64,000 nt of DNA from Buchnera aphidicola (Melanaphis sacchari) (GTDB lineage Bacteria; Pseudomonadota; Gammaproteobacteria; Enterobacterales; Enterobacteriaceae): the NCBI RefSeq assembly GCF_003096055.1, contig NZ_CP029161.1, positions 496,001 through 560,000 of the forward strand, given 5' to 3'. Below the pieces are notes generated by a model. That model was not told the origin of the DNA. It saw only the letters and a list, made by a program, of their open reading frames with translations, and ran no database searches. Position 1 is the stretch's first letter. Each line of letters begins with the position of its first letter. Both the position numbers and the translations under genes were made by a program. Shown here piece after piece: positions 13,883 through 48,093 of this stretch.

Positions 13883-15198
13883 ATGATAATTAATACTATT
13901 AAAAAACATAAAGAAAAAAAATTTTTAATAGCATACAGTGGTGGCATGGACTCTACAGTACTATTGTATAAAATGTTAAAAATAAAAAAAAAATACCTGA
14001 TATTCAAATACGTGCTATTCACATCGACCATAATCTTTACTCAAACTCAAAAAGTTGGAAAAATCATTGTATAAATACTTGTAAAAAAAACAAAATACCA
14101 TTAATAATTGAAAAAATTTTTTATGATTTAAAAAAAATTTCTGAAGAAGTATTGAGAATAAAAAGATATAATCTTATTTACAAACATTTATACTTTGATG
14201 AAATATTATTAACAGGTCATCATTTAAACGATCAATGCGAAACATTAATTTTAGCTTTAAAAAGAGGTAGCGGGCCTACTGGAATCTCCGGGATGTCTAA
14301 AAAAAATAACTTAGGAGAAAAAAAAATAATACGACCTTTGTTAAAAGAAACAAAAAAAGAACTAAAAAAATGGGCACAGAAAAATAATTTAACGTGGATT
14401 AAAGATTTTAGCAATTACAATATTAATCATGATCGTAATTTCATACGACATAAAATCATTCCAATATTAGAAAAAAGATGGCCTTTCTTTTTAAGAAATT
14501 GCTTCCGAACAACTACTATATGTAAACAAGAAGTAAAATTAAAAAATATATTTTTAGAAAAAAAAATAAAAAATTTTATTAATTCAAGTAACGATTTAAA
14601 TATTAAAAAATTTAATCAAATGCCTAAAGAAATAGTTAAAGAACTCATCAGATATTGGATATTGTCAAAAAATGTTAAAGCTCCATCATACAAAATAATT
14701 AAATGTATTTACAAAGAAGTTATATTTAGTAAAAAAGACGCTAATCCAAAAATTATTATTCAAAAAAATACAATTAGACGTTATAAAAATTTTCTTTATT
14801 TTATAAAAAACCAGGAAAAAATTAATAATATTTTATTATTTTGGCATGATACAGAAAAAAAAATTAATCTTCCAAATAACCTAGGTTATTTAGTAAAAAA
14901 TAATCAAGGTATAAAAATTCCTGCTCCTAAAAAAAGTCAATTAATTAATATTCGATTTCAACATGAAGGAAAAATATTGATTTTAGGTCGTGATAAAAGA
15001 AGAAAAATGAAAAAAATTTGGCAAGAACATAACGTGCCACCATGGTTTCGCAATCAAATTCCTCTTTTATTTTATGACGATTATTTTATTAGTGCATTAG
15101 GTATATTTACCGTTATAAACGAAAAAAAATATAAGAATTCTTGGAGAATATCTTGGATAAACAAAATAAAAAATAATAATTCATTTTTATTTTATTAA
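13883..15198 (+). CDS. tilS: tRNA(Ile)-lysidine synthase, interrupted at an A10 tract
   Basis: TilS converts C34 of tRNA-Ile(CAU) to lysidine so that AUA is read as isoleucine. The ATG at 13883 opens a frame with the PP-loop YSGGMDST (about residues 18-25) that stops after 63 codons. The rest is open one frame over, up to 15198. The switch falls at ten A's (13984-13993). One added A gives a continuous 438-residue protein (E. coli 432), with IRAIHIDHNL directly after the tract as in E. coli, GHHLNDQCET, KRGSGPTGISGM and the C-terminal KKIWQEHNVPPWFR all intact. AUA is common in this A+T-rich genome, so the function should be essential. I read it as a functional gene needing slippage, or a sequencing error, not a pseudogene. 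It converges on metG with 2 bases between. Confidence 0.85.
13984..13993 (+). repeat. A10 homopolymer in tilS
   Basis: Ten consecutive A's in the coding strand mark the frame break of tilS. Codons before it are in the frame of 13883; homologous codons after it need one extra A. Confidence 0.95.
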
Positions 15199-15200
15199 TT

Positions 15201-16841
15201 TTAATATTTATTAATATAATTTAAAAATTCTTTAGCATTAATTCGCTCGTATAATTTATGAAATTTATTAATTTTATGAGATAACAAAGGTTTTTCAATA
15301 TTCTTCCAAGTTAGTTTAGACATTAAAAAAAGTTCTGATTTTTTGGCTAAAACTGGAATAATTGGTTTTAAAAAAATTATAATTATTCTAAACAAATTAA
15401 TTCCCATGGTACAAATCATATGAACAGTATTTGTATTCCCATTTTTAACGTTTATCTTCCATGGTTTTTTTTTATTAATATATTGATTAGCTACATCTAA
15501 TAATTTCATACATTCTCGAACAACTAAATTAAAATTACGATTTTCAAAAAATTCTTCAATGCTTTTTTTCGAATTTACAAAATTTTTATATAATTTATAA
15601 TTTTCTAATTCATTAGATAAAAAACCATCAAAATACTTATAAATAAATACAGAAGTTCTAGAAGCTAAATTAACTAGTTTATTAACAATATCATTGTTGA
15701 TTTTATAAATAAAATCATCTACATTCATTTCAATATCATTAATATTATTTGTTAATTTACTAGCATAATAGTAACGTAAACTATCAGAATCAAAGAATTT
15801 AATCCAATCCGAAGATTTAATTAATAAACCTCTAGATTTTGATAGCTTCGAACCATTAACAGTTAAATGACCGTGAACAAAAATACCGCTGGGCTTACGA
15901 AAAGAAGAAGATTCTAATATCGCTGGCCAAAACAAAGTATGAAAGTAAATAATATCTTTTCCAATAAAATGATATATTTCACATTGAGAATCTTGATTCC
16001 AAAACTCTTCAAAATTTATATTTTTATTTTTATAACATAAATTTTTAAAAGCACTCATATAACCAATAGGAGCATCTAACCAAACGTAAAAATATTTATT
16101 TGAAAAATTTGGCACTTTAAAACCAAAATAAGGAGCATCTCTAGAAATTCCCCATTCTTTTAAACCTATTTTTAACCATTCTTCAGTTTTTTTGACTACT
16201 GATTTACTTAAAACCCCAGAATGTATCCAAGAATTTAACATATCAGAAAAAATCGGTAAATTAAAATATAAATGCTTTGTACTTTTTAAGACCGGAGTAG
16301 CACCAGAAATAACAGAAACAGGATTTATTAAATCTACAGGTTCATAAGTAGAGCTACATATTTCGCAATGATCTCCGTATTGATCTTTAGCACTACAAAG
16401 AGGGCAAATTCCTTTAATAAATCTATCTGGTAAAAAAATATTTTTTATATTATCATAAAATTGAAAAATTCTTTTTTTAAAAACAAGTTTTTTCTTGGTT
16501 AAAGATAAAAATATCTTTCTCAATAAGAATAAATTTTCTACGCTATGTGTAGTATGATAATTATCATGAAAAATATTAAAATTTAAAAAATCTTTTTTAT
16601 GCTCTTCTTGAATTTTTTTAATTAATTTTTTTGGTGAAATACCTAAACTTTGAGCTTTTAAAATAATAGCAGTACCATGAGAATCATCTGCTGAAACAAA
16701 CCAAACTTCATTATTGCGCATTCTTTGATAACGCACCCAAATATCTGCCTGAATATGTTCAAGCATATGTCCAATATGAATAGAACCATTGGCATAAGGT
16801 AAAGCGCAAGTTACTAAAATTTTTCTAAATGCGTGAGACAT
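15201..16841 (-). CDS. metG: Methionyl-tRNA synthetase, lacking the C-terminal domain
   Basis: This class I synthetase has 546 residues. HIGH motif HIGHML lies near residues 22-27, the zinc knuckle CPLC...CEIC near 146-162, the KMSKS loop as KLSKSRG near 332-338, and WLDAPIGYMSAFKNLC near 253-268. It ends at a point matching about residue 550 of the 677-residue E. coli enzyme, so the C-terminal OB-fold tRNA-binding/dimerisation domain is missing. tilS ends 2 bases beyond the stop on the other strand, leaving no room for a lost exon or frameshift. E. coli MetRS truncated near this point is monomeric and active, so function is expected. Confidence 0.95.
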   Translation of the reverse strand: MSHAFRKILVTCALPYANGSIHIGHMLEHIQADIWVRYQRMRNNEVWFVSADDSHGTAIILKAQSLGISPKKLIKKIQEEHKKDFLNFNIFHDNYHTTHSVENLFLLRKIFLSLTKKKLVFKKRIFQFYDNIKNIFLPDRFIKGICPLCSAKDQYGDHCEICSSTYEPVDLINPVSVISGATPVLKSTKHLYFNLPIFSDMLNSWIHSGVLSKSVVKKTEEWLKIGLKEWGISRDAPYFGFKVPNFSNKYFYVWLDAPIGYMSAFKNLCYKNKNINFEEFWNQDSQCEIYHFIGKDIIYFHTLFWPAILESSSFRKPSGIFVHGHLTVNGSKLSKSRGLLIKSSDWIKFFDSDSLRYYYASKLTNNINDIEMNVDDFIYKINNDIVNKLVNLASRTSVFIYKYFDGFLSNELENYKLYKNFVNSKKSIEEFFENRNFNLVVRECMKLLDVANQYINKKKPWKINVKNGNTNTVHMICTMGINLFRIIIIFLKPIIPVLAKKSELFLMSKLTWKNIEKPLLSHKINKFHKLYERINAKEFLNYINKY

Positions 16842-16954
16842 GATATTTTATATCTTTAAAATAAAATGATATAATATACAAAATTTAATGAATCGTAAAC
16901 TATTCATTTAAAGACGTAATAAATATTTTAATTAAAAATTCAAAAATAAAAAAT

Positions 16955-17536
16955 TTATTCTTTATAAATACGACTTGGAACAACACCTTTTTGAATTTTA
17001 TATTTTGCTTCATAACGAGAGTTATAAGGATGTCTCACTGATTGAGAAAGTAACTCAAAACTCAATGCTGCAATCTTTATTCCAGGACTTAAAACCAAAA
17101 CTAAACTACCTGCATTAAATATTTCTAAAACAATATTTCCATTCCAACCTGGATCAATACGATGGGATGTTACATGAATCATTAAACCAAGTCTTGCTAA
17201 AGAAGAGCGACCATCCAACCAACCAACTAAATTATCAGGTAAAGTAATGCTTTCTAAAGTAGAAAACAAAGCTAAAGATCCTGGTTTTAAAAAAAAAGGT
17301 TTTTCTTTAGAGAAAATTTCTTCCTCGCTCATAGAATTTTTTAAATCTAAATCAATTTTTTTTTGAGAATTTGTTAAATCAATACAAGAAATAATATGAT
17401 CATAAAAAATACGAAATTTATTACCAAGATGAAGATCAAGCGTCACTCCATTAATCACTTCATTTTTTGGATAAGGCGTAATAATTAATTTTTTTTTATT
17501 TAGCCATATTTTAATATCTTTGTCACACAATCGCAT
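16955..17536 (-). CDS. dcd: dCTP deaminase
   Basis: Dcd deaminates dCTP to dUTP, the main route to dTTP in enterobacteria. Starting at 17536 gives 193 residues, the E. coli length, beginning MRLCDKDI. AGGTAAG lies just upstream of that ATG. An earlier in-frame ATG at 17578 would add 14 unmatched residues and is rejected. GRSSLARLG (about 109-117) and the catalytic HRIDPGWNGNIVLEIFN region with Glu138 are conserved. It lies between metG and gnd on the same strand. Confidence 0.95.
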   Translation of the reverse strand: MRLCDKDIKIWLNKKKLIITPYPKNEVINGVTLDLHLGNKFRIFYDHIISCIDLTNSQKKIDLDLKNSMSEEEIFSKEKPFFLKPGSLALFSTLESITLPDNLVGWLDGRSSLARLGLMIHVTSHRIDPGWNGNIVLEIFNAGSLVLVLSPGIKIAALSFELLSQSVRHPYNSRYEAKYKIQKGVVPSRIYKE

Positions 17537-17579
17537 TTTCTTACCTATGCATAAATATATGTTATCAAATAATATCATT

Positions 17580-17620
17580 AATAGCAGATAGATATATGTT
17601 TTATATTATCTTCTGCTATT
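17580..17620 (-). terminator. Hairpin between gnd and dcd
   Basis: AATAGCAGA (17580-17588) and TCTGCTATT (17612-17620) form a perfect 9-bp stem around a 23-base A+T loop. It lies 76 bases beyond the gnd stop and 44 bases upstream of the dcd start on the minus strand. It may end the gnd transcript or structure the dcd leader. There is no clear U-tract. Confidence 0.4.
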
Positions 17621-17695
17621 CTGAATAGTTAATTATTTATAAAATGTTATGATTAATATTTTCTAATAAAAATTTATATTGATTTTATTAAAAAA

Positions 17696-19111
17696 TTAAT
17701 CTTTAACTAACCAATCAGTATGAAAATATCCTTTCTTATCAATTCTTTGATAAGTATGAGATCCAAAATAGTCTCTTTGCGCTTGAATCAAATTAGCTGA
17801 TGAAACGGGTGTTCTATAACTATCATAATATGATATAGCAGATAAAAAAGCGGGAATAGGAATACCATATTTAATTGCATGTATATTAACATTACGCAAT
17901 GCGCTGTGATATTCATTAGATATTTTTGAAAAATAAGGTGTAAGTAATAAATTAACAACGTTGTGATTACTATCAAACGCATCTGTAATTCTTTCTAAAA
18001 AACCTGCTCGAATAATACAACCAGATCTAAAAATTTTAGCAATTTCACCATACTTTAAGTTCCAAGAATACTTTTCAGAAGCTCTCTTCAATTGAGAAAA
18101 ACCTTGTGCATAGGAAATAATTTTTCCTAAATATAAAGCTCTTCGAACTTGTTCAATAAAATCATTTTTATTTTTGATTAATGTTTTCTTTAAAAGGGGC
18201 CCATTTAATATTTTTGCCGCTAAAATACGCTGTTTTTTTAAAGAAGATAAATATCTTGAAAATACAGATTCTGTAATTAAAGAAAGTGGTTCTCGTAAAT
18301 CTAAAGCATTTTTACTAATCCATTTCCCAGTACCTTTGTCTTCTGCTTCATCTAAAATAGAATCTATTAAATAGTTTTCTCCTTTATCTTTTCTTGAAAA
18401 AATATTTTTTGTTATTTCAATCAAATAACTATTTAATTCTCCTTCATTCCAATAAGAAAAAGTATTAGATAATTCTTCGTTACTCATGTTTACTAAGTGT
18501 TTTAATATAAAATATGATTCTGCAATTAACTGCATATCACTATATTCAATCCCATTATGAATCATTTTAACATAATGTCCTGAACCGTTAGGTCCGATAT
18601 AACTTACACAATCTTCACCTTTAAATTTTGCAGATATTTTTTTTAGCATAGAAGAAATAAGATTGTATGCTTTTTGAGAACCTCCTGGCATAATAGATGG
18701 ACCATGTAACGCTCCAAATTCTCCTCCAGAAACTCCCATGCCAATAAAATGAATACCTATTTTCAATAAATCATTATATCTTCTTATAGTATCCTTATAA
18801 AATGTATTACCTGCATCAATTAGTATATCTCCTTGATTTAAATATGGAAGTATTGATTCAATAGTTTGATCTGTAGCTTTTCCAGATTGAACCATTAATA
18901 AAATTCGTCTAGGTTTTTCTAAAGAGTGAATAAAATCTTTTATAGAAAAATATGGAAAAATATTTTTTCCTTTATTATTATTTATCACTTCTTCTGTAAC
19001 CAATCGAGTTCTATTAAAAATAGATACACTATATTTATTTTTTAAAAAGTTTAGAGCTAGATTACGCCCCATTACTGCCATACCTACCACGCCAATTTGT
19101 TTTTTAGACAT
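17696..19111 (-). CDS. gnd: 6-phosphogluconate dehydrogenase
   Basis: This enzyme oxidatively decarboxylates 6-phosphogluconate to ribulose-5-phosphate with NADP. The start at 19111 ([12 protein letters not shown]) has GGAG 5 bases upstream and matches E. coli; a Met 7 codons earlier is unlikely. The protein is 471 residues (E. coli 468). The Rossmann motif [14 protein letters not shown], the substrate motif [19 protein letters not shown] (about 128-146), the catalytic [19 protein letters not shown] (about 178-196) and the C-terminal [12 protein letters not shown] are intact. It lies beside the his operon, as in E. coli, and supplies pentose for PRPP, the HisG substrate. Confidence 0.96.
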
Positions 19112-19413
19112 TCTTACTCCAATATAAAACATATAATATTTATGAATAAATATCTTTCAAGTATTAGTTTACTAAATACTAAAAATTACACAATAAATAA
19201 TATTATAACTATTTTAAATGTTATCTTGCATAAAAAATTTTTTAAAAATTATAAAAATTTTTTGACAAGAAAATTATATTAACTTTAATTAAAAACATAA
19301 TTGGCAGATTTTAATTGTTTAAGAAAGAAAAAATTTTTATACATATATTAAATTTTATTTGACATTTTTATTAAAAATAATATAAATTGAGCGTTTTTTA
19401 TTAATTTAAAAAC
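19112..19413 (-). other. Spacer between hisI and gnd
   Basis: These 302 bases hold the gnd ribosome binding site at the left edge and are otherwise A+T-rich without a supported ORF. A promoter-like TTGACA-N16-TATAAA (19359-19386) points the wrong way, antisense into the end of hisI. I see no clear hairpin terminator for the his operon. Confidence 0.4.
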
Positions 19414-20037
19414 TTATAATTTTTTCATTTTTCTTTTTTTTAAATTTTCAATAACCAAATTAAAATTTAAATTTTGATCATGTAATAAAACGAGTAAATG
19501 ATAGATTAAATCAGATGATTCATTAATAATTTCGTTTGAATCTTTTTTCATTGCTGCTAATATTGTTTCTATAGCTTCCTCACCTACTTTTTGAGCTATG
19601 CGTTTAGTTCCAGAATTATATAATAGCGAAGTATATGAATTTTTTATATGAGATTTTTTTCTATTTTCTATAATCTTTTCTAACTGATAAATAAAATTTA
19701 AATAGCTCTTATGAAGAGAAAAACAGCTATATTTATTTAAATGACATGTTTTTCCAATAGGATTAACAAATATTAATAACGCATCAAAATCGCAATCCAT
19801 ATTTATATTAATAACTTTTAAAAAGTTTCCTGATGTTTCCCCTTTTGTCCATAAACGTTTTTTAGTTCTAGAATAAAAAGTTACTAATCCTTCTTTTTCT
19901 GTTTTTAATAACGCTTCTTTGGTCATATATCCATGCATTAAAACTTGATTAGATAAGTGATCTTGTATTATAGTTGGTATAATACCTTCTGTTTTTTTCC
20001 AATTTAATTTATCAAGATAACTGTTATTATTTAACAT
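19414..20037 (-). CDS. hisI: Bifunctional phosphoribosyl-AMP cyclohydrolase / phosphoribosyl-ATP pyrophosphohydrolase
   Basis: This fused HisI-HisE enzyme (207 residues; E. coli 203) does steps 2 and 3 of histidine synthesis. The cyclohydrolase half (about 1-115) has TKGETSGN, the Asp-rich metal site DCDFDALL (about 80-87) and [11 protein letters not shown]. The pyrophosphohydrolase half (about 118-203) has the helical motif [13 protein letters not shown] and the [13 protein letters not shown] helix. It is the last gene of the operon and overlaps hisF by 7 bases. Confidence 0.96.
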
Positions 20038-20807
20038 ATTCTAATTTCTATACCTTGTTGTACTAAAAAATTTTTTAATCTTTTTATATTTACTATTTTT
20101 TTATGAAATACTGAAGCTGCTAAAACACCATCTACATTTGTATAATGAAGAGCATCATAAAAATGTTCCATTTTACCAGCACCTCCTGATGCAATTAATG
20201 GAACTTTGCAGATTTTTCTAACATCATTCAATTGTAGTAAATCATAACCTTTTTGTAATCCATCTTGATTCATCATATTTAAAACTATTTCTCCAGCACC
20301 ATTTTTTTGTACTTTTTCTATCCAATCTAGTGTTTCCCACTCTGTTTGATATGTTTTTTGCACATCTCCTGTATATTGGTAAACCATGTAGGATCGTTTT
20401 TTTTTATCAAACCACGAATCAACTCCAACAACTACACACTGCGTTCCAAATTGATCTGCAATTTTCGTAATTAATTTAGGATTCATTAACGCTGCTGAAT
20501 TTATTGATATTTTATCAGCACCAAAAGATAAAATATTTTTTGCATCTTCTATACTTTTAATACCTCCAGCAACACAAAAGGGAATATCAATTACCTCTGC
20601 AACTTTTTTAACCCAAGATTTATCAACTAATTTATTTTTAACAGAAGCAGAAATATCATAAAAAACAAGTTCATCAATACCTTCTTTGGTATAACGTTTA
20701 GACAAATGTATAATATCACCTACAATCTCATGATTTTTGAATCTAACACCTTTTACAACCCTTCCATCTCTTACATCAAGACATGCTATTATGCGCTTTG
20801 CTAGCAT
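20031..20807 (-). CDS. hisF: Imidazole glycerol phosphate synthase cyclase subunit
   Basis: This TIM-barrel cyclase has 258 residues, exactly the E. coli length. It uses ammonia from HisH to make imidazole glycerol phosphate and AICAR. Catalytic Asp11 is in [12 protein letters not shown] and Asp130 in VVGVDSW. The phosphate-binding CVAGGIKS (about 77-84) and [11 protein letters not shown] (about 222-232) are intact. It overlaps hisA and hisI by 7 bases each, indicating coupled translation. Confidence 0.97.
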
Positions 20808-21529
20808 TTTAATGCCTCTTCTATTGTAAATTTTTTTTCTAATAAACCACGACCAATAATAATACTATCTACTTTACTTTTTTTTAAGTTTACAATATCT
20901 TCTAAATTACCTACTCCACCTGATGCTTGAAATTTTATATTTTTAAACTTTTTTACTATGTCTTTATATAATAGAATATTAGGACCAGATAAAGTGCCAT
21001 CTTTAGATATATCCGTACATAAAACATGTTTTAAACCAAAAGGTAAGAAAAAATCAATGATTTCTTCTAAAAGAAATTTAGTATTTTCTTGCCAACCATG
21101 AATTGCTACTTCTTTTTTTTGATTTACAGTATCAATACGAATATCTAAGGCTAAAACAATGGACTCTGAACCATAAATTGTTAACCATTTTTTTACTTCT
21201 CTTTTATTAATAATTGCCGCAGAACCTATGACAACTCTTTTAATACCTAACTTAAAAAGTGTGTTTATATCATTTTCATTTCTAATTCCACCTCCTAATT
21301 GAATCGAAATATTAATTTTTGGAATAATATCTTTAAAAAATTCTAATTGTTTTTTTTCTGAATTTCTTGCTCCATCTAAATCCACAAAATGAATAAATTT
21401 TATACCTTTAGATGCATATAATTTTAAATTTTCATATAAATCAATATCGTATTTTTTTTGATTTAGATAATTGCCTTGGTATAAACGAACAACATTACCA
21501 TTAATAAGATCAAATGCTGGAATAATCAT
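20801..21529 (-). CDS. hisA: ProFAR isomerase (phosphoribosylformimino-AICAR-P isomerase)
   Basis: This TIM-barrel isomerase (242 residues; E. coli 245) opens the ribose ring of ProFAR in histidine synthesis. The N-terminal catalytic Asp lies in [18 protein letters not shown] and the second in VLALDIRID (about 130). [11 protein letters not shown] (about 79-89) and [10 protein letters not shown] (about 197-206) are the phosphate loops. It overlaps hisF by 7 bases and follows hisH by 2 bases. Confidence 0.96.
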
Positions 21530-21531
21530 AT

Positions 21532-22131
21532 TTATAATTGCATCTCTAAAAAATTTTTTAATAATTGAGCTCCGACACTACCGGATTTCTCAGGGTGAAA
21601 TTGAACGCCAAAAAAATTTTTCTTTTGCATGACAGCGCTGAAAGAAACTTCATAATTAGATGTAGCTAATGTGTATTTATTTAAAGGAATAATATAACTA
21701 TGAACAAAATAAAATCTTGAATTTTTGTTAATATTTTTAAATAATGGTTGGGAATCATCAAACGAAATATTATTCCAACCAATATGAGGTAACGGAAAAT
21801 TAGTCGTTTTTAAAAGATGTGCAGAACAATTTTTAAAAATCCCAATAGTTTTTGTTCCTATGCATTCTTCGCTAAAATCGCAAAAAATTTGCATTCCAAG
21901 ACAAATACCTAAAGTAGGGTGTTTTAAATTTTTAATAGTGTTAATTAAATTTTTTTTATGTAGAATTTTCATAACTGTTGCGGCATTTCCTACCCCAGGC
22001 AAAAAAATCTTTTGAGCTTTTAAAATTAAATCAATATTAGAAGTGATGACAGAAGTATAACCTATTCTTTTGATAGCTACTTGAATTGAAGTCAAATTAG
22101 CACAACCAGTATCTATTATCACTATATTCAT
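21532..22131 (-). CDS. hisH: Imidazole glycerol phosphate synthase glutaminase subunit
   Basis: This class I glutamine amidotransferase (199 residues; E. coli 196) makes ammonia for HisF. The nucleophile Cys lies in LGICLGMQ (about 73-80), the oxyanion region in FLPGVGNA (about 47-54) and the His/Glu pair in GVQFHPEKSG (about 176-185). Its start overlaps the hisB stop by 1 base. Confidence 0.96.
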   Translation of the reverse strand: MNIVIIDTGCANLTSIQVAIKRIGYTSVITSNIDLILKAQKIFLPGVGNAATVMKILHKKNLINTIKNLKHPTLGICLGMQIFCDFSEECIGTKTIGIFKNCSAHLLKTTNFPLPHIGWNNISFDDSQPLFKNINKNSRFYFVHSYIIPLNKYTLATSNYEVSFSAVMQKKNFFGVQFHPEKSGSVGAQLLKNFLEMQL

Positions 22132-23198
22132 TATAGAATGCCTTTTGATGTTGGTAATGCATTGCCTTCTATTTTTATTGCTTGACGAAGAGCTTGACCA
22201 AATACTTTGAATAAACTTTCAACACAGTGATGATCATTTTTTCCTAAAACACTTAAATGTAACGTAATTTTCATAGAATAACACAGAGAATAAAAAAAAT
22301 GCTCAACCATATTAGCATTTAAATCTCCTACCATTTTATGTTGAAAATTAGCTTGAAAATTTAAATATGGACGATTAGATATATCAATACTACATTTTGC
22401 TTCGCTTTCATCCATTGGTAAAACGAAACCAAATCTACGTATACCATTTTTATTATTCAATGTTTTAAATAACGCTGATCCTAAAACTATGCCTACATCT
22501 TCTACAGTATGATGATCATCAATTTTTAAGTCGCCATTAGCTAAAATATACATAGATATACCACTATGTATTGATAATTGATCTAACATATGGTCAAAAA
22601 AATTTATTCCAGTACTAATAGAAGTAAAATTCATTAAATCTAACCATACTTTTACGTGCACATACGTTTCTTTTGTTTCTCTAATAACTTCTGCATATCT
22701 ATTTCTTTTAAGGATTTCGCAAGTAATTTTTTTCCAATTACATTTTTTTTCATGATATTGTATTCCCATCAATCCTATATTTTTTGCTAATTCCATATCC
22801 GTTTCTCTGTCCCCAATTACATAACTGCGTTTTAAATCTATATTTTTTTCATTCAACCATGGAAGTAATAATTGAAATTTAGGTTTACGACATTTACAAT
22901 TATCACTCGATAAATGAGGACAAATTAAAACATCTTCAAAAATTATTCCTTCTGAACGAAATACATCTAACATAAAAAAATGCGGTATATCAAAGTTTTT
23001 TTTAGGAAAAGATTTACTTCCAAGGCCATCTTGATTAGTAACAATTATAAATTTATAATTAAATCTCATTAATTTTAATAACGAAGAAATAACAAAATCC
23101 TTAAATTTAAGCTTATCAAGTGTATCTACTTGAAAAGTAGAAATCGGTTCATCAATTAAGGTTCCATCTCGATCAATAAATAATATTTTTTGTTTCAT
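22131..23198 (-). CDS. hisB: Bifunctional histidinol-phosphatase / imidazoleglycerol-phosphate dehydratase
   Basis: This fused enzyme catalyses two his steps. The HAD phosphatase domain (about 1-165) has the nucleophile motif FIDRDGTL, TNQDGLG and zinc-binding CPHL...CKCRKP. The dehydratase domain (about 166-355) has NFFDHML-type INFFDHMLDQL, DDHHTVED twice-His motif and the C-terminal DHHCVESLFK. Starting at 23198 (MKQKILFIDRDG) gives 355 residues, the E. coli length, with GAGGT about 12 bases upstream. An ATG at 23216 overlaps the hisC stop as ATGA but lacks a binding site and adds six unmatched residues. Confidence 0.95.
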   Translation of the reverse strand: MKQKILFIDRDGTLIDEPISTFQVDTLDKLKFKDFVISSLLKLMRFNYKFIIVTNQDGLGSKSFPKKNFDIPHFFMLDVFRSEGIIFEDVLICPHLSSDNCKCRKPKFQLLLPWLNEKNIDLKRSYVIGDRETDMELAKNIGLMGIQYHEKKCNWKKITCEILKRNRYAEVIRETKETYVHVKVWLDLMNFTSISTGINFFDHMLDQLSIHSGISMYILANGDLKIDDHHTVEDVGIVLGSALFKTLNNKNGIRRFGFVLPMDESEAKCSIDISNRPYLNFQANFQHKMVGDLNANMVEHFFYSLCYSMKITLHLSVLGKNDHHCVESLFKVFGQALRQAIKIEGNALPTSKGIL

Positions 23199-23212
23199 TA
23201 AATTAAAATACC

Positions 23213-36269: not shown

Positions 36270-37129
36270 GTGAATTTATTCGATACTAACAATGGTATTC
36301 TCTATATTGTTCCAACACCTATTGGTAATTTATCTGATATTACTTATCGAGCCATAGAGATTTTAAAAAAAGTTAATTTAATAGCAGTTGAAAACATCCG
36401 ACATACTAACATCTTACTAGAACATTTTAATATAAAAAATGTTTTAACCACTTTAAATAAAAATAACGAACTGATAAAAAGTAATTATTTAATTCAAAAA
36501 CTAAAAGAAGGAAAAAATGTTGCCTTAGTATCTAATGCAGGAACACCACTCATTAATGATCCAGGCTATTACTTAATAAAAAAATGTCATTTTTTAAATA
36601 TTAAAATTATTCCTCTTCCCGGTCCTTGCGCCGCTATTACAGCATTAATTGCCTCCGGAATATCTAGCAATCGCTTTTGCTATGAGGGCTTTTTACCATC
36701 AAAAAAAAAACTAGATGCGATCTATTATACTCTTTAAGAAAAGAACAACGAACAATGATCTTTTATGAAACAAAACACCGAATTATTCAAAGTATAAAAG
36801 ATATTATTGAACAAATTAGTAAAACTAGATACTTAGTCATTGCTAAAGAAATTACAAAAAAATGGGAATCTATTTACGGTACAACTGCGGATAACATGTT
36901 AACTTGGCTAAAATCAGATAAAAATCGTTATCAAAAAGGAGAAATGATTATTATTTTAAATGGCTTTCAAGAAATAAAAAATAAAAATATTTCAGAAAAA
37001 ATTATTAATACATTTAAAATATTAAAAAATTCACTTTCTTTTAAAGAATCTATACTAGTTACTTCTCAAATATATAAAATTAAAAAAAATAAATTATATC
37101 GTTACATGTTAAAAAATAAAGAGCAATGA
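36270..37129 (+). CDS. rsmI: 16S rRNA C1402 2'-O-methyltransferase, interrupted at an A10 tract
   Basis: RsmI (YraL) methylates the ribose of C1402 in 16S rRNA. The first frame has [25 protein letters not shown] and [12 protein letters not shown], then runs into a stop shortly after ten A's (36701-36710). The homologous continuation, [12 protein letters not shown] and KGEMIIIL, is one frame over. One extra A gives 286 residues, exactly the E. coli length, with [12 protein letters not shown] joined to the RTMIFYE segment. I prefer the GTG at 36270 (GGA 7 bases upstream) over a TTG 12 bases earlier. It is the second of three genes here with the same lesion. The stop codon lies in the rnpB promoter. 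Confidence 0.82.
36701..36710 (+). repeat. A10 homopolymer in rsmI
   Basis: Ten A's bounded by C on both sides mark the frame break of rsmI. Homology before and after requires one additional A. Confidence 0.95.
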
Positions 37130-37567: not shown

Positions 37568-37598
37568 AAAAGGTAATAAATTTATTACCTTTTTTTTT
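37568..37598 (+). terminator. rnpB terminator, possibly bidirectional
   Basis: A 26-base perfect palindrome (arms AAAAGGTAATAAA and TTTATTACCTTTT, 37568-37593) is followed by a T run to 37598. It lies 18 bases after rnpB and 22 bases beyond the pmbA stop from the other side, so it could serve both convergent genes. Confidence 0.8.
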
Positions 37599-37619
37599 AA
37601 TTTTTAAAAAATAAAATTA

Positions 37620-38963: not shown

Positions 38964-39148
38964 ATATAAGTTCCTTGAATTATTATATATAATTTAAGCT
39001 CAAAATTTTTTTAAAAATGCATTGAGATTATTTTAAATATACGCAATTATATAAAAAAAATGCTTTTTTTCCAAATAAATTACTTGATATAAAAAAGAAA
39101 CTTTTCAATTCAAAAAATAAGTTTTTTTATAAAATAAGGAATTCACAA

Positions 39149-39685: not shown

Positions 39686-39716
39686 AAAAATTGATGTTTA
39701 AAAAAATAACTATTTA

Positions 39717-42596
39717 TTAAAAATAAATATCTTGTTCATTAATTTTAAAAACAAAGAAAAAAAATTTTAAATAACCTATTAAATTATATTTTGATAAAAT
39801 ATAACTTAAACTTAATTGAGAAGAAAATGAAATTATCGTTTTAGGTATAATAGAAACTGCTACTTTATCGCTGCTGAATATAGCATTCCATATAACATTA
39901 GAAAATTTACCATCATTAATAAAATTTAATTTAAACAATATATTACCCTGGTTAATTAAAATTTTTTGATTTGTTGAAACATTTTCTATACTTTTGGGAA
40001 TATAACGAAAAAATAAAATCATATATTTTAATATATTATTACTTTTAATGTATATATTATTTAAATGAATATTAGCTATTATTTTTGGATGATATAAATC
40101 GCCTAAAAAATACGTATTACCTTTTAATAATCCATCAAATTTTACAATATCATTTATAAAAAAATTTAAAAAAGAAAATTGTACGTTGGAAAAAGTTATT
40201 TTCCCTTGTAATTCTTTTCTATTATAAATATCACGAATATTCAAGATGCCAAATATTTTATTTTTTAATGATTTTTGAAATTCATTTATTTTCCATTTAG
40301 TTATAATTGTATTTTTTTTTAATTGCAAATAAAAATCCAGATAATCTATTCTTTTAGTAAAAATTTTATCTTTTATTTTTCTTTTTAGTTCTATATTATT
40401 GCCTTTTAAAAAAAAATTCATATCAGAAATACTTTTTCCTAATTTCCAATTAAAATTAATATTAAAAAATACATCAGTTTTAAACTTGATTAATGATTGG
40501 CTAATGCATTTTTTTAAGAAAAAGTTTATTTTATTTTTAATATTAGAAGAAATATTTTTTATTTTGTAAAGATCGTCTTTGCAGTTGTTATTTTTTACAA
40601 TATTTTTTTTATAAAAAAATGCCAAAGAAGTATCTTTGATAATCCATTTTCCCCAATATGTTTTGATATAAATTTTTTTTAGCAAACCCTTCCAAAGACC
40701 TGATGCGTAATTATTACGACCCATTAAAATACATCTTATAGATACATCTTTATTTTGTTTAAGAAAAAAATTAAAATTTTGTGTATTATGATTCCATTGG
40801 CCCTGAAAATTAAAAGAATTAAGATTAACTGATAAAAAATGTAGTTTTTTTATATCAATGTTTATACTATTTAAAATTTTTTTTGGGGAATTTATATGAG
40901 TAGAAATTTTTATATTATCTAGTTTAACATTATTCCAACGAATATTTTTCCCCGAAAGATTACCAGAAAATACAGGTGAATAAAACAAACCGTATATGTT
41001 AAAAGTAGTGGTTATTACACCCTTTAAATTAGGTAGAAAAAAATCTAAATTATTAAAATTAATAGAAGAAAAAATATTCATTCTTTTTGATATTAAACCA
41101 GATAAAAATCCTCTGTTTTTTCCTAATAAAAAACTTATTTTAGGAATTTTAATTTCATCAAATTTTTGATAATTTAATAAACCAAATATAGATATTCTGC
41201 GTTTTATTAAATTATTGGGAATATTAAAATAGTATTTAAAAAAATCATGCAATTTTTTATGAAGATGATCTATCGTATCTATTTTTTTTCGAAATAAATA
41301 TTTATTTAAATTATTTTTTTTAGGACATACTAAGTTTTTATTTTTAATATCTTGAATTAAAGGTTGAAAAAAAATTTTTTTTAAAAAAATTTTTTTTAAA
41401 TTTCCATGACCTAAAATTTTAACAAATATAGAAGGAGTTCCCGATATATTAAAAATATTTTTTATAGAAAAAAAATAATTACTCGTAGTTCCTTTTAAAG
41501 AAAACATAATATCTTTCATATGTATTTTAAATTTTTTATTCAAAGAAAAAATAAAAGAGTAAATTTTAGAATTTAGATAAATGGGATAATTTTCTTTGTT
41601 TAATATAATTTTGCCATATGTGTAAAATTGAAATAAAGAATTTCTTGATTTTATTTTAAATGTAAAAATATCATTAATAGTTCCTTGTAATAAGATTTGT
41701 ATAAATTTGTTATGAAAATTTTTTAAGAAAAACTTATTTTTAATAAAAAAAGAGATAGAAGAATTTTTTTTATAAAAAATTTCTCCTTGGGAATTAAGCT
41801 CAAAATATTTTGAAAAAAATTTTATCTTTTTTATTTTTAATACACTTTCTTTTAATTTAGCATTTAGCTCTATTTTAGATAAATTTACTGAATTTTTTTC
41901 GAATAACTTCATTTTTTGGCATTTTACTGACTTTAAAGTAATATTTTTTGAAATAAAAAAATTTTTAAAATTTGAAAAAAAAGATTTAAAATCATCTACT
42001 TTTTTAGCATTAAAAACATTTTTTTTATAAAAAAAATGTTTTATATAATTATTTGAAGATTTAAAATAAATAGAATAAATATTAGTAGGATAAATCATTA
42101 AATGATTATTAAAATTTTTTATACTACTGTGTACGTTAAAAAAAAATATATTACTTTTTTTTATTTTTAACAAAATTTTATCGCAATAAATTTTTTCAAA
42201 AAAAATAGGTTTTTTGAAAAAAAATTTTTTTTTGGGTTCAAATATATCTTTTTTAAAAGAAAAATTCTTTTTATTTTTTTGTAAAAAAATTATTAAATTT
42301 TTGGTTTCTATTTTTTTAAAGATAGTCGTCATTCGAAACAAAGACATTGGATCAATTATAATATGAATGCTATCTGCTTGAATAGACGTATTCAAAAAAT
42401 TATAACTAATATTTTTTAAAGTAAAATCTCTCCAATTTCCTGATATTTCTTCTTTTTTTAATCCTAAAAAATAATAATTAGTAATATTAAAAATCCATTT
42501 AAATCCAATATTAATTTCTAAAAAAAATAATATTAAAAATGAGAATATAGAAAGAAAAATCAAAGATTTAGATAAGTATCTCTGATACACAGCCAT
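39717..42596 (-). CDS. tamB: TamB (YtfN) AsmA-like envelope protein, C-terminally truncated
   Basis: The 959 residues correspond to E. coli TamB (1259), a periplasm-spanning beta-taco protein implicated in moving phospholipids to, or assembling proteins in, the outer membrane. An N-terminal membrane anchor (about 10-32) is followed by GNWRDFTLKNISYNF (about 54-68), matching GGWRDLTLSDVRYE. The body is very Lys/Asn/Phe-rich. The last conserved part (QGNILFKLNF onward) matches E. coli to about residue 1000, so about 250 C-terminal residues, including most of the DUF490 domain, are missing. ppa converges 31 bases beyond, leaving no space for them. tamA, adjacent in E. coli, is absent; rpmB is upstream instead. 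Confidence 0.87.
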   Translation of the reverse strand: MAVYQRYLSKSLIFLSIFSFLILFFLEINIGFKWIFNITNYYFLGLKKEEISGNWRDFTLKNISYNFLNTSIQADSIHIIIDPMSLFRMTTIFKKIETKNLIIFLQKNKKNFSFKKDIFEPKKKFFFKKPIFFEKIYCDKILLKIKKSNIFFFNVHSSIKNFNNHLMIYPTNIYSIYFKSSNNYIKHFFYKKNVFNAKKVDDFKSFFSNFKNFFISKNITLKSVKCQKMKLFEKNSVNLSKIELNAKLKESVLKIKKIKFFSKYFELNSQGEIFYKKNSSISFFIKNKFFLKNFHNKFIQILLQGTINDIFTFKIKSRNSLFQFYTYGKIILNKENYPIYLNSKIYSFIFSLNKKFKIHMKDIMFSLKGTTSNYFFSIKNIFNISGTPSIFVKILGHGNLKKIFLKKIFFQPLIQDIKNKNLVCPKKNNLNKYLFRKKIDTIDHLHKKLHDFFKYYFNIPNNLIKRRISIFGLLNYQKFDEIKIPKISFLLGKNRGFLSGLISKRMNIFSSINFNNLDFFLPNLKGVITTTFNIYGLFYSPVFSGNLSGKNIRWNNVKLDNIKISTHINSPKKILNSINIDIKKLHFLSVNLNSFNFQGQWNHNTQNFNFFLKQNKDVSIRCILMGRNNYASGLWKGLLKKIYIKTYWGKWIIKDTSLAFFYKKNIVKNNNCKDDLYKIKNISSNIKNKINFFLKKCISQSLIKFKTDVFFNINFNWKLGKSISDMNFFLKGNNIELKRKIKDKIFTKRIDYLDFYLQLKKNTIITKWKINEFQKSLKNKIFGILNIRDIYNRKELQGKITFSNVQFSFLNFFINDIVKFDGLLKGNTYFLGDLYHPKIIANIHLNNIYIKSNNILKYMILFFRYIPKSIENVSTNQKILINQGNILFKLNFINDGKFSNVIWNAIFSSDKVAVSIIPKTIISFSSQLSLSYILSKYNLIGYLKFFFFVFKINEQDIYF

Positions 42597-42807
42597 AAAA
42601 ATTATCCCAATTTCCTATAATTTTAAAAAATTAACTGATGATTGATTATATACAGTCTTAATTTAATTTTTAAAATATTAAAATATTTTTTATGAAAAAT
42701 TAAGTTAATAGTGCAATAAGACCTCTATTATGGTAATTTATGATATATTAGTATACTAATTAATAGAATTTTATTAAATTATTTATCTATTAAAGGATAT
42801 TTTAAAT

Positions 42808-43029
42808 ATGTCTCGTATATGTCAAATTACAGGAAAAAAAAGAATGATCGGAAATAATCGATCACACGCCATGAATGCAACAAAAAGACAATTTTTACCA
42901 AATATTCAATATCATAGATTTTGGATACCTGAAAAAAAAAGATTTATTAAATTACGCATCTCTGCTAAGGGAATGCGTTATATAGATAAGAAAGGGATAG
43001 AATCAATAATAAAAAATATCAAAAAATAA
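42808..43029 (+). CDS. rpmB: 50S ribosomal protein L28
   Basis: The 73-residue protein (E. coli 78) begins [17 protein letters not shown] and has the [14 protein letters not shown] core and [19 protein letters not shown], all L28 signatures. It lacks the last few residues of E. coli L28. AAAGGAT precedes the ATG. It forms an operon with rpmG, as in E. coli, with 10 bases between. Confidence 0.97.
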
Positions 43030-43039
43030 AGGTTATATT

Positions 43040-43207
43040 ATGGCAAAAAAAAATAGAGAAAAAATAAAAATGATTTCTTCTGCAAAAACAGGTCATTACT
43101 ACACTACTACTAAAAATAAAAGAAATACACCAGATAAACTACAATTAAAAAAATATGATCCAATCGTTCGAAAACACGTATTATATAATGAGGGAAAAAT
43201 TAAATAA
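43040..43207 (+). CDS. rpmG: 50S ribosomal protein L33
   Basis: This is a 55-residue gene, the exact E. coli length. The translation starts [20 protein letters not shown] and includes the near-invariant YTTTKNKR, followed by [14 protein letters not shown]. The zinc-cysteine pairs of some L33 forms are absent, as in E. coli. AAAGGTT lies just upstream. It follows rpmB by 10 bases and is probably translated from the same mRNA. Confidence 0.97.
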
Positions 43208-43242
43208 AAAATAATTTTATATAAAAAATCTTTTAATTAATT

Positions 43243-43270
43243 AAAGTATAATTTTTACAAATTATACTTT
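43243..43270 (+). terminator. Hairpin between convergent rpmG and fliR
   Basis: AAAGTATAATTT (43243-43254), loop TTAC, AAATTATACTTT (43259-43270) make a perfect 12-bp stem in the 100-base gap between the rpmG and fliR stops. It may serve both strands. Neither side has a clean U-tract. Confidence 0.6.
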
Positions 43271-43307
43271 ATATAAAAAATATCTTGAAAAATAAAAAAA
43301 TTAATTT

Positions 43308-44078
43308 TTAAAAAGTATGAGATATAAATAAAAACAACTCATTAAACATACCCTGAAAAAAAGAAATAGAATTAGATGTTAAATAATATAGCATCAAGAT
43401 TCCTATTGATAAATTTAATGGAAAACCAATAGAAAAAATAGATATTTGGGGAGACAATCGATTTAGAAAACTCATCATTAAATTAGATAATAATAAAAAA
43501 ATCATAATTGGTAAAACAAACATCACACTATTTATAAAAATTGAACTAGAAAATTTCAATAAATTAGAAAAAATATTAATATTAAAATAATTAATAGAAA
43601 TAGGTATACTATAAAAACTATTAATTAACGCAGATATTAAATAAAGATGCGCATTGACAGCTAAAAATAAAAATAAAACTAAAATATTTAATATACGTGA
43701 TAAAACAGAAGAGCCGATATTATAATTATTTCCACTAAAGAATGTCGCAAAAGATAAACCCATTTGCAAACCAACTACCTCCCCCGAAAAATTAATTGCA
43801 CTAAATAAAAATTGAGATACAAAACCTAATGCCACACCAATTAAAACTTGCTGCAAAAGTAATAATAAACCAATAAAAGAGAACAAATTAAAATCTACAT
43901 GAGGCAAAAAAGGTGATATGATCGCGCTAATTATCGCAGATAAAATTATCTTAATTTTTTTATTTACGTGCTGATGATTAAAAATAGGACCTGTTGAAAT
44001 AAAAGCAAGAATTCTCACAAAAGGCCAAAATAAATTGCCAATTAAAATTAATAACTGAAAATTATTAAAAGTTAACAT
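43308..44078 (-). CDS. fliR: Flagellar export gate protein FliR
   Basis: This 256-residue polytopic protein (E. coli 261) is part of the FliPQR export gate inside the MS ring. ALGFVSQFLFSAINFSGEVVG and GLQMGLSFATFF (about 79-110) and SPQISIFSIGFPLNLSIGI (about 209-227) are the strongest family blocks. It is the last gene of the fli operon and overlaps fliQ by 1 base. Confidence 0.95.
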   Translation of the reverse strand: MLTFNNFQLLILIGNLFWPFVRILAFISTGPIFNHQHVNKKIKIILSAIISAIISPFLPHVDFNLFSFIGLLLLLQQVLIGVALGFVSQFLFSAINFSGEVVGLQMGLSFATFFSGNNYNIGSSVLSRILNILVLFLFLAVNAHLYLISALINSFYSIPISINYFNINIFSNLLKFSSSIFINSVMFVLPIMIFLLLSNLMMSFLNRLSPQISIFSIGFPLNLSIGILMLYYLTSNSISFFQGMFNELFLFISHTF

Positions 44079-44347
44079 TATCTTGCAACTACAGATATAT
44101 TGTTGAATAAATTATGCATATAATCTAACATGATTCCAAGCATCCAAGGACCAAGAATAGTTATTACAGAAAAAATAGCAATAATTTTAGGAATAAATGA
44201 AAGAGTTTGCTCATTAATTTGCGTAGCAGCTTGTAATATACTTACAATCAAACCACTAATTAAAGAAGATAACAATAAAGGCGACGAAATCATTAAGATT
44301 ACTTTCATAGCCTCATGAAATAATCCCATGACATATTCTGGTGTCAT
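44078..44347 (-). CDS. fliQ: Flagellar export gate protein FliQ
   Basis: The 89-residue protein, the exact E. coli length, has two hydrophobic hairpin helices (about 15-40 and 52-75). MTPEYVMGLFHEAMKV and GLIVSILQAATQINEQTLSFIPK (split here around 29-51) are diagnostic. FliQ packs around the FliP-FliR helical pore. It is 50 bases downstream of fliP and overlaps fliR by 1 base. Confidence 0.96.
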   Translation of the reverse strand: MTPEYVMGLFHEAMKVILMISSPLLLSSLISGLIVSILQAATQINEQTLSFIPKIIAIFSVITILGPWMLGIMLDYMHNLFNNISVVAR

Positions 44348-44397
44348 AAAATGTTCCTTTTCTTCTATAAATATATTTTAAGATTTATAAATATTTT

Positions 44398-45549
44398 TTA
44401 CATATTAAAACTTTGTGATAATGAAGTTATTAAAATTTTCCATCCATCTACTAATACAAACAACATTAATTTAAATGGCAATGATATAGTAGAAGGGGGA
44501 ACCATCATCATACCCAAAGCCATCAATACACTAGCTATAACTAAATCAATAATTAAAAAAGGAATGAAAATAGTAAAACCTATTTGAAAAGCAGTTTTTA
44601 GCTCACTAGTAATAAAAGATGGCAATAAAATACGCATTGGAATATCTGCTTTATTTTTATAAAAAGAAACATGCGCTAGTTTAGAGAATAGTTCTAAATC
44701 AGAAGTTCTTGTTTGATGTAACATAAATGTTTTAAATGGAATAGCACCCTTTTCAATAGCTTCGTTCATATTAATTTTTTCTTCGCTAAAAGGAAGATAC
44801 GATTCTTTATAAACTTGATCAAAAGTGGGACTCATTATAAAAAAAGTTAAAAATAGCGCTAATCCTAATAATATTTGATTTGGTGGGGCATATGGAGTGC
44901 CTATAGCATTTCGAAGTAAACCAAAAACAATAATAATTCTAGTAAAACTAGTCATCATCAAAATGAAAGCAGGCAAAAAAGTCAATAAAGTTAAGAATAC
45001 TAAAGTTTGAATTGGTAGAGACCATGCTTGACTGCCATCAGATAAAGAATGACTTATTGGTCCAGGAATATCTGCATATACTAAAGGACAAAATAGAAAT
45101 AAAAACAAAAACGGAATTATTCGATAAAACATTGTATTTTTCCAAAATATTTTAGCAAAATTTTTTAAACAATTAAAAATATTTTTTTTAGGTAAAATAG
45201 ATTTTTCTTTTTTAAGAAATTTATCTTTTTTATCATATGGTAATGTATATAAATGAGCAATACTATTTTTTGTTACTCCTAAAATTAATTTAGCATCCTT
45301 TACTTTTATAATTAGTAAAGATTCATTCGATCCTATTTTTATTTTATCTAATATTTTCAGATAAGAATCTTTTTTAACAACATTAAATAAAGAAATTTTT
45401 TTTATTAGCCAACTTAAAACCAATATTAATAATATGATTTGAATTAATGAACTAAATATATGAAAGAAATTTACACTATTAAACATTGGTTCAAGAATAT
45501 TTGAAGTCAATTGAGAATACTCATCATATTTCATATAATGTAAATTCAT
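44398..45549 (-). CDS. fliP: FliO-FliP fusion
   Basis: One 383-codon frame encodes two proteins that are separate in E. coli. Residues about 1-125 match FliO: a membrane helix (about 31-49), then [25 protein letters not shown]. Residues 140-383 match FliP (244 against 245 in E. coli) with a complete FliP signal peptide [20 protein letters not shown], then [16 protein letters not shown] and [11 protein letters not shown]. An internal ATG at 45132 has GGA about 8 bases upstream, so FliP could also be started on its own, or released by signal peptidase. The first codon overlaps fliN by 1 base. FliO normally helps the FliP ring assemble. Confidence 0.9.
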
Positions 45550-45944
45550 TATTGATTATTCACAGAATTTAGATTTTTTTTCATACTTATAATTCGAATA
45601 CCATATTTCTTTTGTGACACTACAATTTCTCCTAAACCAATTAATTTTCCATTGGCAAAAATTTTTAAAAAATCCTCTGGACTTTCATTTAATGATAACA
45701 TTGTGCCTACAGAAAAATTTAATAAATCTTTTATTTTTACCTTTAATCCTCCTAATTCAACAGCTATATTAATAGGAAGATTTAAAATTTTTTCATTTTT
45801 TTCTATCAATTTATCAACGATATTTGACTGATTTTGTCTTGAATCAGAAGATAGATCTTCTTTAACAAGATTTGTATCATTATTATCTTGAATTTTAAAA
45901 TCATCAGATGTATTTGAATCATTTACTTTTTCTATTAAATTCAC
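45549..45944 (-). CDS. fliN: Flagellar C-ring protein FliN
   Basis: The 131-residue protein (E. coli 137) has a poorly conserved, acidic N-terminal half and a C-terminal SpoA domain (about 55-131): [26 protein letters not shown] and [20 protein letters not shown]. In the motor FliN forms the base of the C ring and also docks the FliH-FliI export ATPase, which explains retention without motility. It is 23 bases after fliM and overlaps fliOP by 1 base. Confidence 0.94.
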
Positions 45945-45967
45945 TTAAGCATTCCTTTTTTTATTTT

Positions 45968-46861
45968 TTACTTTTCTGAATAAATCTTTTCTAAAAAAAT
46001 AACAGATTTTTGATTAAATTTTTTATAGCTGCATTGAAATATAGGTTTTTTTTCTATATAACCAATCACTTTATCAGGACATGTAATTTCTAAAACATCT
46101 CCAATAGATAAATTTTTAAATTGATGTTCAGTAATATAAAAATCTAATAATCGTACAATCATATTTAATTTAACATCATGTATATTTTTAAGAAAAATAT
46201 TTTTTTTAAAAATTTTTTCTTTTGAAAGTAAATTTCTATTTTTTTTAGTAATCTGATTTTTACTATATTCCTTGAATATTGATAAAGGAACTAAAATTAC
46301 AAAAAAAATATCTATATTTTTTATTTTTAAATTAAAATAATGAGTAATAAAAGTTTCATTTAAGCTAATTTTTTTTTCATATCTATCTACTATTTTCACA
46401 TTTAATATTTTTATATTTATAGAAAAAAACTTTTTACATATAGAACAATAAGTATCAATAATTAATTGAACTATTTTTTCATTGATATAATTCTCTATGT
46501 AAGTAAGATTCTTTCTTATACATAAATTACGATTATTTTCATAGCTGCTATTTCCTCCAAATAAAAAATCTGTAAAAACAGACAAAAAATTATCAGATAA
46601 ATATAAGAAAGATTTTATTTTTAAAGGTAAAAATTCAATATTATTAGAATATAAATATTGAGTATTTTCATGCTTATCAAAAGAATTAATATCTATAAAA
46701 AAATTATTTATTTGAATATCTTTCTGAATAATATTGGAAATTTTTATTTCAATTTTCTTTATAAAATTATTATTAATAACTTTTATCTTTTCTACTATAT
46801 CTTTCTTTAAAAAATTATCTAAAGTTTCTTTTTTATAACTCATTTGATATTTTCTAGTCAT
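45968..46861 (-). CDS. fliM: Flagellar C-ring protein FliM, degenerate
   Basis: This 297-residue protein (E. coli 334) keeps the middle CheC-like domain and a C-terminal SpoA domain (about 220-293, LSIGDVLEITCPDKVIGYIEKKP). The N-terminus is changed. The CheY-binding peptide SQAEIDALL is at most a remnant (KETLDNFL, about 11-18), and the following linker of about 25 residues is missing. The FliG-facing GGDG motif reads GGNS (about 102-105). No strong binding site precedes the ATG at 46861; Met7 is an alternative. fliL, which precedes fliM in E. coli, is absent. Confidence 0.88.
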   Translation of the reverse strand: MTRKYQMSYKKETLDNFLKKDIVEKIKVINNNFIKKIEIKISNIIQKDIQINNFFIDINSFDKHENTQYLYSNNIEFLPLKIKSFLYLSDNFLSVFTDFLFGGNSSYENNRNLCIRKNLTYIENYINEKIVQLIIDTYCSICKKFFSINIKILNVKIVDRYEKKISLNETFITHYFNLKIKNIDIFFVILVPLSIFKEYSKNQITKKNRNLLSKEKIFKKNIFLKNIHDVKLNMIVRLLDFYITEHQFKNLSIGDVLEITCPDKVIGYIEKKPIFQCSYKKFNQKSVIFLEKIYSEK

Positions 46862-46963
46862 ACTGTTAATTTTGCCAATTTATTAGACGCGTTATAGATA
46901 AAAGTTGCTTGAATTAAAAATTAATTATATTAATTAAGATAAATATAATTTAAAAAAATTATT

Positions 46964-48093
46964 TTAAACATACATATCAATAAATTTATCTTGCGGCAAT
47001 GTTATATATTGTTTTTTAGAATTAATATTTTCTTTGAATAAAAGTTCATTTAAAAAAATACTTTTTATATTATTTTTATGTTTTTCAGAATAGATTTTCT
47101 TAGTACAAAATGAATCATAAATATTAATTTTATTTAATTGAATACCATTTTTAATTAATGAATCAATCAAGAGAGGAATACAATTATCTAAAAAAATTTT
47201 AATTTCTTGATTCTTAGAAAAGAAATTTAATGTTACATAATTTTTTTCTATTTTCATTTTAATATATATAGAACCAAAAAAATCAGATTTTAGATGCATT
47301 TCTGCTTGTTTTTCTTTCTTGGAAATAGATAGTAATATTTGTCGATTAATTACTTTTTTCCATTTAACATTCAAATCTAAATTAGAAAAAATAAAAGATT
47401 TTAAATTCGATTTAGATCGACTAATTTTATCATTAGAAAAATTTATTAACTTAGTTATATTTTCTATTTTATTTGTATTTTTAAAAAGAAAACTATTTTT
47501 TTTATAAATGGGATTACTCGTACAATAAAATGCATTTATATCGTTTTTTAAAATTTTTTGATTATTTTTATCGTTAGTACGAGCATCTAAAAAATGGGGT
47601 ATTTTTTTAAAATATTCATTAAATTTTTTATTAAAAACATTACAATTCTTTGATTTATATAAATGATGCATTTTTATCGATTTTGAAGATAAACTTTGAA
47701 TAATATATTTTTTATTTTTTCTTTTATAATCTATAATTCTATTTTTTTTTGAAATATTAAAGAAACTTAGAGAAGCTGATCGAATTGCTTTTTTTAATTT
47801 GTTTTTATTCATATTTTTATAATTATTATTAAAATTAAAACACAATCTTGAATATTTTTCATTTAAAAGATTGAGCAAATTAAAAATTATAAAATTTGAA
47901 GATATAGTAATGTTATTATCTTTTTTTTTTTAGTTGAAATATTATCAAATTCTATTTCTTTATTTAGTAAGCATTTTTTAAAATTATTTAAAACGGATAT
48001 AAACGAATTATTTTTATGATTCATATTGTGCATACTATAATCTTTATGCAACGTTTTTTTTTCTAAAATGATATTATTAAAATTTATTAACAT
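46964..48093 (-). CDS. fliK: Flagellar hook-length protein FliK, interrupted at an A11 tract
   Basis: FliK measures hook length and switches export specificity. A start at 48093 with AAGGT upstream, 4 bases after fliJ, opens a frame that ends 68 codons later. The remainder is open one frame over to 46964. The break is at eleven A's in the coding strand (T's at 47921-47931). One added A joins them into 376 residues (E. coli 375). The C-terminal Flg_hook domain (last 130 residues or so) is well conserved: QAEMHLKSDFFGSIYIKMKI, LPLLIDSL-type CIPLLIDSLIKNGIQLNKINI. The middle is Lys/Asn-rich, as expected for this variable protein. A separate start at a TTG (47878) is possible but has an in-frame stop just upstream of the tract. 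Third gene with this lesion. Confidence 0.8.
47921..47931 (-). repeat. A11 homopolymer (coding strand) in fliK
   Basis: Eleven T's on the plus strand are eleven A's in the fliK coding strand. The two fliK frames meet here, and one additional A would join them. Confidence 0.95.

Follow-up and report, generated by a model that had tools for sequence, protein, structure and literature searches.

Poly(A) frame breaks in tilS, rsmI and fliK of a Buchnera genome, probably tolerated with the help of slippage

Can a gene whose reading frame is broken inside a run of adenines still serve the cell that carries it? This question is raised by a 64,000-nucleotide stretch (the window) of the chromosome of Buchnera aphidicola (Melanaphis sacchari) (NZ_CP029161.1, positions 496,001 to 560,000), in which tilS, rsmI and fliK each fall into two frames at a poly(A) run. 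We propose that the three runs are probably tolerated frame breaks of the kind known in Buchnera and Blochmannia, most likely rescued by RNA polymerase slippage. The phenomenon itself is known; within it tilS makes a strong case for an essential gene, fliK is a real break in a gene that is perhaps decaying, and rsmI is unproven.

A sequence-only reading of the window had placed the breaks in an A10, an A10 and an A11 run, and direct reading of the DNA confirmed these positions. In tilS (plus strand) the upstream frame (13883..14074) starts at ATG 13883 and gives a 63-amino-acid (aa) product before a stop, including the motif SGGMDS, which we take to be the nucleotide-binding loop. The frame changes at the run (T+A10+T, 13984..13993), and the downstream frame (13994..15198) is open through the normal stop, with no stop in alignment to APS TilS. 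The upstream frame of rsmI (plus strand, 36270..36737) yields 155 aa from GTG 36270, or 159 aa from TTG 36258, before it stops; the run (TC+A10+CT) lies at 36701..36710 and is followed by an open reading frame (ORF) at 36711..37129. On the minus strand, fliK begins at ATG 48093 and stops after 68 aa (47887..48093), the A11 run (T11 on the plus strand) occupies 47921..47931, and the downstream frame (46964..47920) holds a 304-aa ORF from TTG 47878. Translation across the runs with one gained nucleotide gave the proteins that had been predicted, of 438, 286 (290 from the TTG) and 376 residues. The frame after the run is in all three genes the one reached by gaining one nucleotide, although on sequence alone two A too many would fit equally.

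The comparison set consisted of 36 Buchnera genomes including this one (G000); handles such as G001 denote the others, and the names attached to them, such as R. maidis Buchnera for G008, are our attributions. Four chromosomes (G000, G008, G010 and G030) were joined from fetched stretches, and the ORFs of each were aligned to the DNA of the others with frame changes allowed. Here rsmI and fliK emerged as clean single breaks against ORFs of the three other genomes, while tilS was missed because the ATG-only references started too late, and was confirmed separately. All three genes have one break, inside a homopolymer of at least nine bases, and no further stop or frameshift, and the alignments support the earlier observation that sequence is conserved on either side. 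An ordinary pseudogene would be recognised by several inactivating changes or faster divergence; we found a single break in each gene and no stops, the divergence of fliK not being polarisable. The other matches in the window were a multiply broken relic at about 28.8-29.0 kb (presumably the one that the sequence-only reading called bcp), discrepancies close to the ends of genes, and short ORFs that are spurious.

The strongest functional case of the three is TilS, an enzyme that the cell seemingly cannot live without. TilS makes lysidine, letting tRNA-Ile(CAU) read AUA. A scan of the chromosome, with the two plasmids outside it, identified three CAU tRNAs, one of them 94.6% identical to annotated E. 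coli tRNA-Ile, and no UAU tRNA-Ile. AUA codons number 7,693 and occur in 525 of the 527 genes counted, and the genome contains a single tilS match. Neither tilS piece should work alone, because the 63-aa fragment holds the nucleotide-binding loop and the remainder lies in the other frame. The same run is broken in four of the 36 genomes (A10 here, A11 in G021 and G014, A14 in G020) and in frame in the other 32. All four breaks have the same sign, and on a tree that covers all genomes but G019 and G025 (34 in total), where the window genome is sister to a group of G024, R. maidis Buchnera, G010 and Sg, the carriers are scattered rather than neighbours and four changes are needed. A truncated 348-aa tilS is also present as a database cluster of three members with one contig of 1,993 bases, perhaps from the same sample. 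For 452 genes the distance to the APS orthologue was compared with that of G008 and G010, and by this ratio tilS stands at the 67th percentile in this lineage. Taken together, the data suggest that the split tilS is probably still read into working protein.

How might this happen? Copying of DNA would slip in long A runs, leaving the downstream frame one nucleotide out, as observed; RNA polymerase would then slip back on the run, add an extra A in a share of the mRNAs, and allow those to be read in frame. Some full-length product is probably made, because tilS shows no extra divergence (the argument is weaker for rsmI and unclear for fliK) and TilS has no visible substitute. As the sequence-only reading had noted, polymerase slippage is reported for Buchnera: in this genus and in Blochmannia, transcriptional slippage has been described as rescuing genes with poly(A) frameshifts (Tamas 2008, cited in PMC5009743 and PMC3164680; Williams and Wernegreen 2010, PMC3017870). 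Corrected transcripts were measured by others in Buchnera of another aphid; their share was 12-50% for frameshifted cell-wall genes of aphid symbionts and a histidine gene of an ant symbiont (PMC5009743, citing Tamas 2008), and in R. padi Buchnera a broken locus can yield corrected mRNAs (PMC3164680). Of the transcription errors recorded in Buchnera, 157 were insertions, 151 of them in homopolymers, and 70 were deletions, the number of deletions in homopolymers being given as 16 of 57 (15 in another place; PMC5574713).

Breaks of this kind extend well beyond the window. A strict filter dropped breaks at most 25 residues from either end, alignments that contained a stop or a second frameshift, references shorter than 120 aa, weak flanks, and places with an unbroken alignment of another near-full-length reference. 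In this genome it retained, at runs of at least nine, 10 breaks that need one more base and two of opposite sign, which with tilS makes about 13 in total; the genes hit include murE, murF, murC, ftsI, lepB, ispE, rsmD and a lytic transglycosylase. The corresponding counts (gain needed to reverse) were 13:4 in G008, 7:4 in G010 and 8:0 in G030, so that across the four genomes 38 events need a gain and 10 the reverse; these replace a looser count of 46:14, and tilS lies outside both. G008 is probably error-laden and was therefore left out, giving 25:6, or 22:6 when counted by gene and sign (p=0.004, three genomes; the binomial test takes the gene/sign classes as independent and mutation as supplying the two signs 50:50). 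For just this genome and APS the count is 18:2, and for G010 alone 7:4. Split by run length, the counts are 33:6 for A9-A11, 4:4 for runs of at least 12 and 1:0 for T10. The in-frame pools of the four genomes comprise 931 A9, 193 A10 and 27 A11 runs; single-base gains thus have far more starting runs than losses, and mutation alone would be expected to favour the opposite sign, unless base loss from long runs greatly outpaces base gain in shorter ones. The rarity of opposite-sign breaks is as expected if these are rescued less often. Three entries of the strict list, a 281-aa gene, glmM and murF, differ in sign from one genome to another. Separately, we observed a dnaK break in G010 (A9 run, close to residue 553 of 639; G010:C1:163653), and breaks of miaA (A12) and bioH (A11) in both G008 and G010 (orthologues of G000:C1:36094-37038 and 57389-58165), all with the rarer sign.

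The most widespread break is that of murF. Among the 36 genomes searched, 35 have the gene, and in 29 of these it matches in two frames, this genome's copy lying at G000:C1:384491. At the run, 28 copies need a gain (A9-A13), one, that of this genome (A14), needs the reverse, and six are in frame. The in-frame copies are six tips of the tree, two of them in one group of three, and the pattern takes six changes; a broken ancestor is the simpler reading because the in-frame copies are tips, whereas the count itself gives no direction. Of 35 genomes, 10 carry a murC break at one run, all with the same sign (here G000:C1:390058, A10). In murE a break lies near one place in five of 35 (four with this sign, G019 the reverse), and three more genomes have it elsewhere in the gene; the murE break here (G000:C1:382791, A10) recurs in G008, G010 and G024. 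G025 is the one genome of the 36 in which murC, murE and murF all lack a match. In R. maidis Buchnera (G008, with its probable assembly errors) and its relatives the three genes are near-intact, with one run break each. As a further observation, the gene that is murD by position shows a frame change about 35 residues before its end, away from any run (G000:C1:387411).

Several observations weigh against rescue by slippage. The rsmI run is in frame in 35 of the 36 genomes and broken only here, and open rsmI frames of 282-335 aa occur in all 35 others; the gene stands at the 58th percentile of divergence overall, its downstream part at the 87th (452 genes). Fast-evolving fliK has an open frame shorter than 340 aa in 10 of the 36 genomes including this one, as in a gene on its way out, and may be decaying. 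Opposite-sign breaks constitute eight of the 36 gene/sign classes, this genome's murF and ispE included, with murE of G019 as a further case, and a transcriptome-wide study of Buchnera, in the portions available, reports no frame-restoring transcription error (PMC5574713). The rsmI and fliK patterns would also suit fresh null mutations, where the genes are newly dead and look intact since decay has not begun, and Degnan 2011 (PMC3164680) counts such cases as inactivations, allowing that some may be corrected. We consider this explanation unlikely: it is hard to hold for TilS, given the use of AUA and the lack of a substitute, and the fliK break is shared with G024, a genome of the sister group, in which both the run (A11) and the sign agree. 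fliK is in frame at that run in G008, G010 and Sg; its break site was read in G000, G008, G010, G030, G001 and G024, and the other 30 genomes were judged by open-frame lengths. murF, moreover, illustrates that most Aphidinae symbionts can carry a break while the gene does not decay.

Tolerated breaks could also be read through by the ribosome, leaving the mRNA unchanged. Direct reading shows an A AAA AAA heptamer in all three runs, and a -1 shift there reaches the same frame as a gained nucleotide and has the same sign as the observed breaks. Slippage of the dnaX type uses an A run with slippery heptamers, a likeness to the genes seen here; unlike dnaX, these show no downstream structure (fold z +1.29, -0.50 and +1.06 against shuffles, an upstream Shine-Dalgarno-like stimulator being outside the test) and no sign of a needed short product. 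In G000, G010 and G030, breaks backed by at least two reference genomes number one at runs of 7-8 and 14 at runs of at least nine, although in-frame A7-A8 runs are about five times as many (4,196 against 854); this argument is weak, since the mutation rate rises with length. Ribosomal slippage is a doubtful candidate, on a par with null mutation, and in our judgement the polymerase is clearly favoured over the ribosome. Finally, all three genes need one more base and the rsmI break is unique to this genome, as homopolymer under-calling in the assembly would produce. Such a signature appears in G008, where 11 breaks at runs shorter than nine are all one base short, with at least two references each, and look like deletion errors; an A13 run splits hisS in G008. 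The window genome is free of such a signature (no short-run break with a missing base, one with an extra base), and its distribution of A/T run lengths resembles that of relatives. The sequence-only reading had asked that sequencing error be excluded first, which is largely achieved for tilS and fliK, where error is unlikely because other Buchnera genomes are broken at the same runs (tilS in G014, G020 and G021; fliK at the same length in G024), though it does not extend to rsmI. The 1,993-base contig listed for the truncated tilS may also speak against miscalling, unless it stems from the same sample, and the M. persicae Buchnera genome, sequenced at 130-375x coverage, kept breaks of this type uncorrected (PMC3890641). 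Another contig, of 18,471 bases, encodes a 282-aa FliK that is 96% identical and starts past the break; a full open frame there would normally have been called whole by the gene caller. For rsmI, no near-identical sequence was among the 120 matches listed, the 155-159-aa piece not being used as a separate query. Under-calling in this assembly appears very unlikely, and rescued, tolerated breaks account best for the three genes.

The earlier reading had also inferred a systematic state from three cases in one window. Such a state is indeed common in the genus, but the number in the window is not notable: about 13 such breaks in 626 kb predict 1.3 per 64 kb, three or more have a probability of 0.15, and the window, which has nine A/T runs of at least 10, was rejected as a frameshift hotspot. 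The total is similar to, and the state of the same kind as, that in Degnan 2011 (PMC3164680), whose Table 1 gives homopolymeric frameshifts of 8 (Ua), 10 (Ak), 11 (APS Tokyo), 13 (5A), 12 (Tuc7), 18 (Sg), 1 (Bp) and 3 (Cc), that is 8-18 in six Aphidinae symbiont genomes and 1 and 3 in two others. The main text of that paper names neither tilS, rsmI nor fliK (nor the older names mesJ and yraL), its supplements lying outside the search. As in the cases of Tamas 2008 and PMC3017870, a single indel lies in a long A run of an otherwise intact gene conserved on both sides, in the same genus; unlike them, other genes are involved and the state is known here from the genome alone. In M. persicae Buchnera (PMC3890641), too, polyA indels split gene models conserved on both sides, which were judged to be under purifying selection and kept as functional, so the general idea is already in print, though the available text specifies neither genes nor sign. 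In Blochmannia, ancient frameshifts (Wernegreen 2010, cited in PMC3017870) have likewise been maintained for long times without decay; unlike in that ant symbiont, the tilS breaks are scattered and not shared. For murF, Degnan 2011 (PMC3164680) read four independent inactivations, whereas in our set 29 of 35 genomes have the break at one run, and 28 of them agree in sign. A literature search limited to open-licence papers turned up neither the sign skew nor an ancestral murF break; the skew of 22:6 by gene and the murF break in 29 of 35 are possibly new.

The window chromosome measures 626,137 bases and is accompanied by contigs of 7,683 and 3,666 bases, which match Buchnera plasmids (one Arsenophonus record among 54 being the exception; best about 80% identity over most of the query). 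The closest named relatives of the TilS, RsmI and FliK proteins are from Buchnera. An ORF at 2122-3219 was considered as prfB and dropped, as it is not prfB, and an ARAGORN tRNA-SeC call at 22040-22123 of the window, inside an ORF, is probably a false positive. Elsewhere on the chromosome, two genes with up to eight frameshifts each in alignments (G000:C1:304896-305828 and 408974-410997) look like plain decay.

The surrounding pattern is more interesting than the three window genes. Read jointly, the observations give about an even chance that slippage-dependent expression is a standing, selected state in Buchnera, in which breaks survive mainly when polymerase or ribosome slippage undoes their sign; murF would have lost its frame at roughly the time when the Aphidinae symbionts arose, the in-frame copies having reverted later, and even AUA decoding, through tilS, could hang on slippage. 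Pipelines that delete or split such genes lead to biology being inferred from their absence. In one study frameshifted coding sequences were removed and Aphidini Buchnera were described as lacking murF, murC and/or murE, yet cell walls were labelled in R. maidis (PMC9116674); on the joint reading, these genes may be expressed by slippage and not lost. If rescue is real, gene loss in symbionts has been overcounted, and the AUA decoding of a cell depends on errors of expression.

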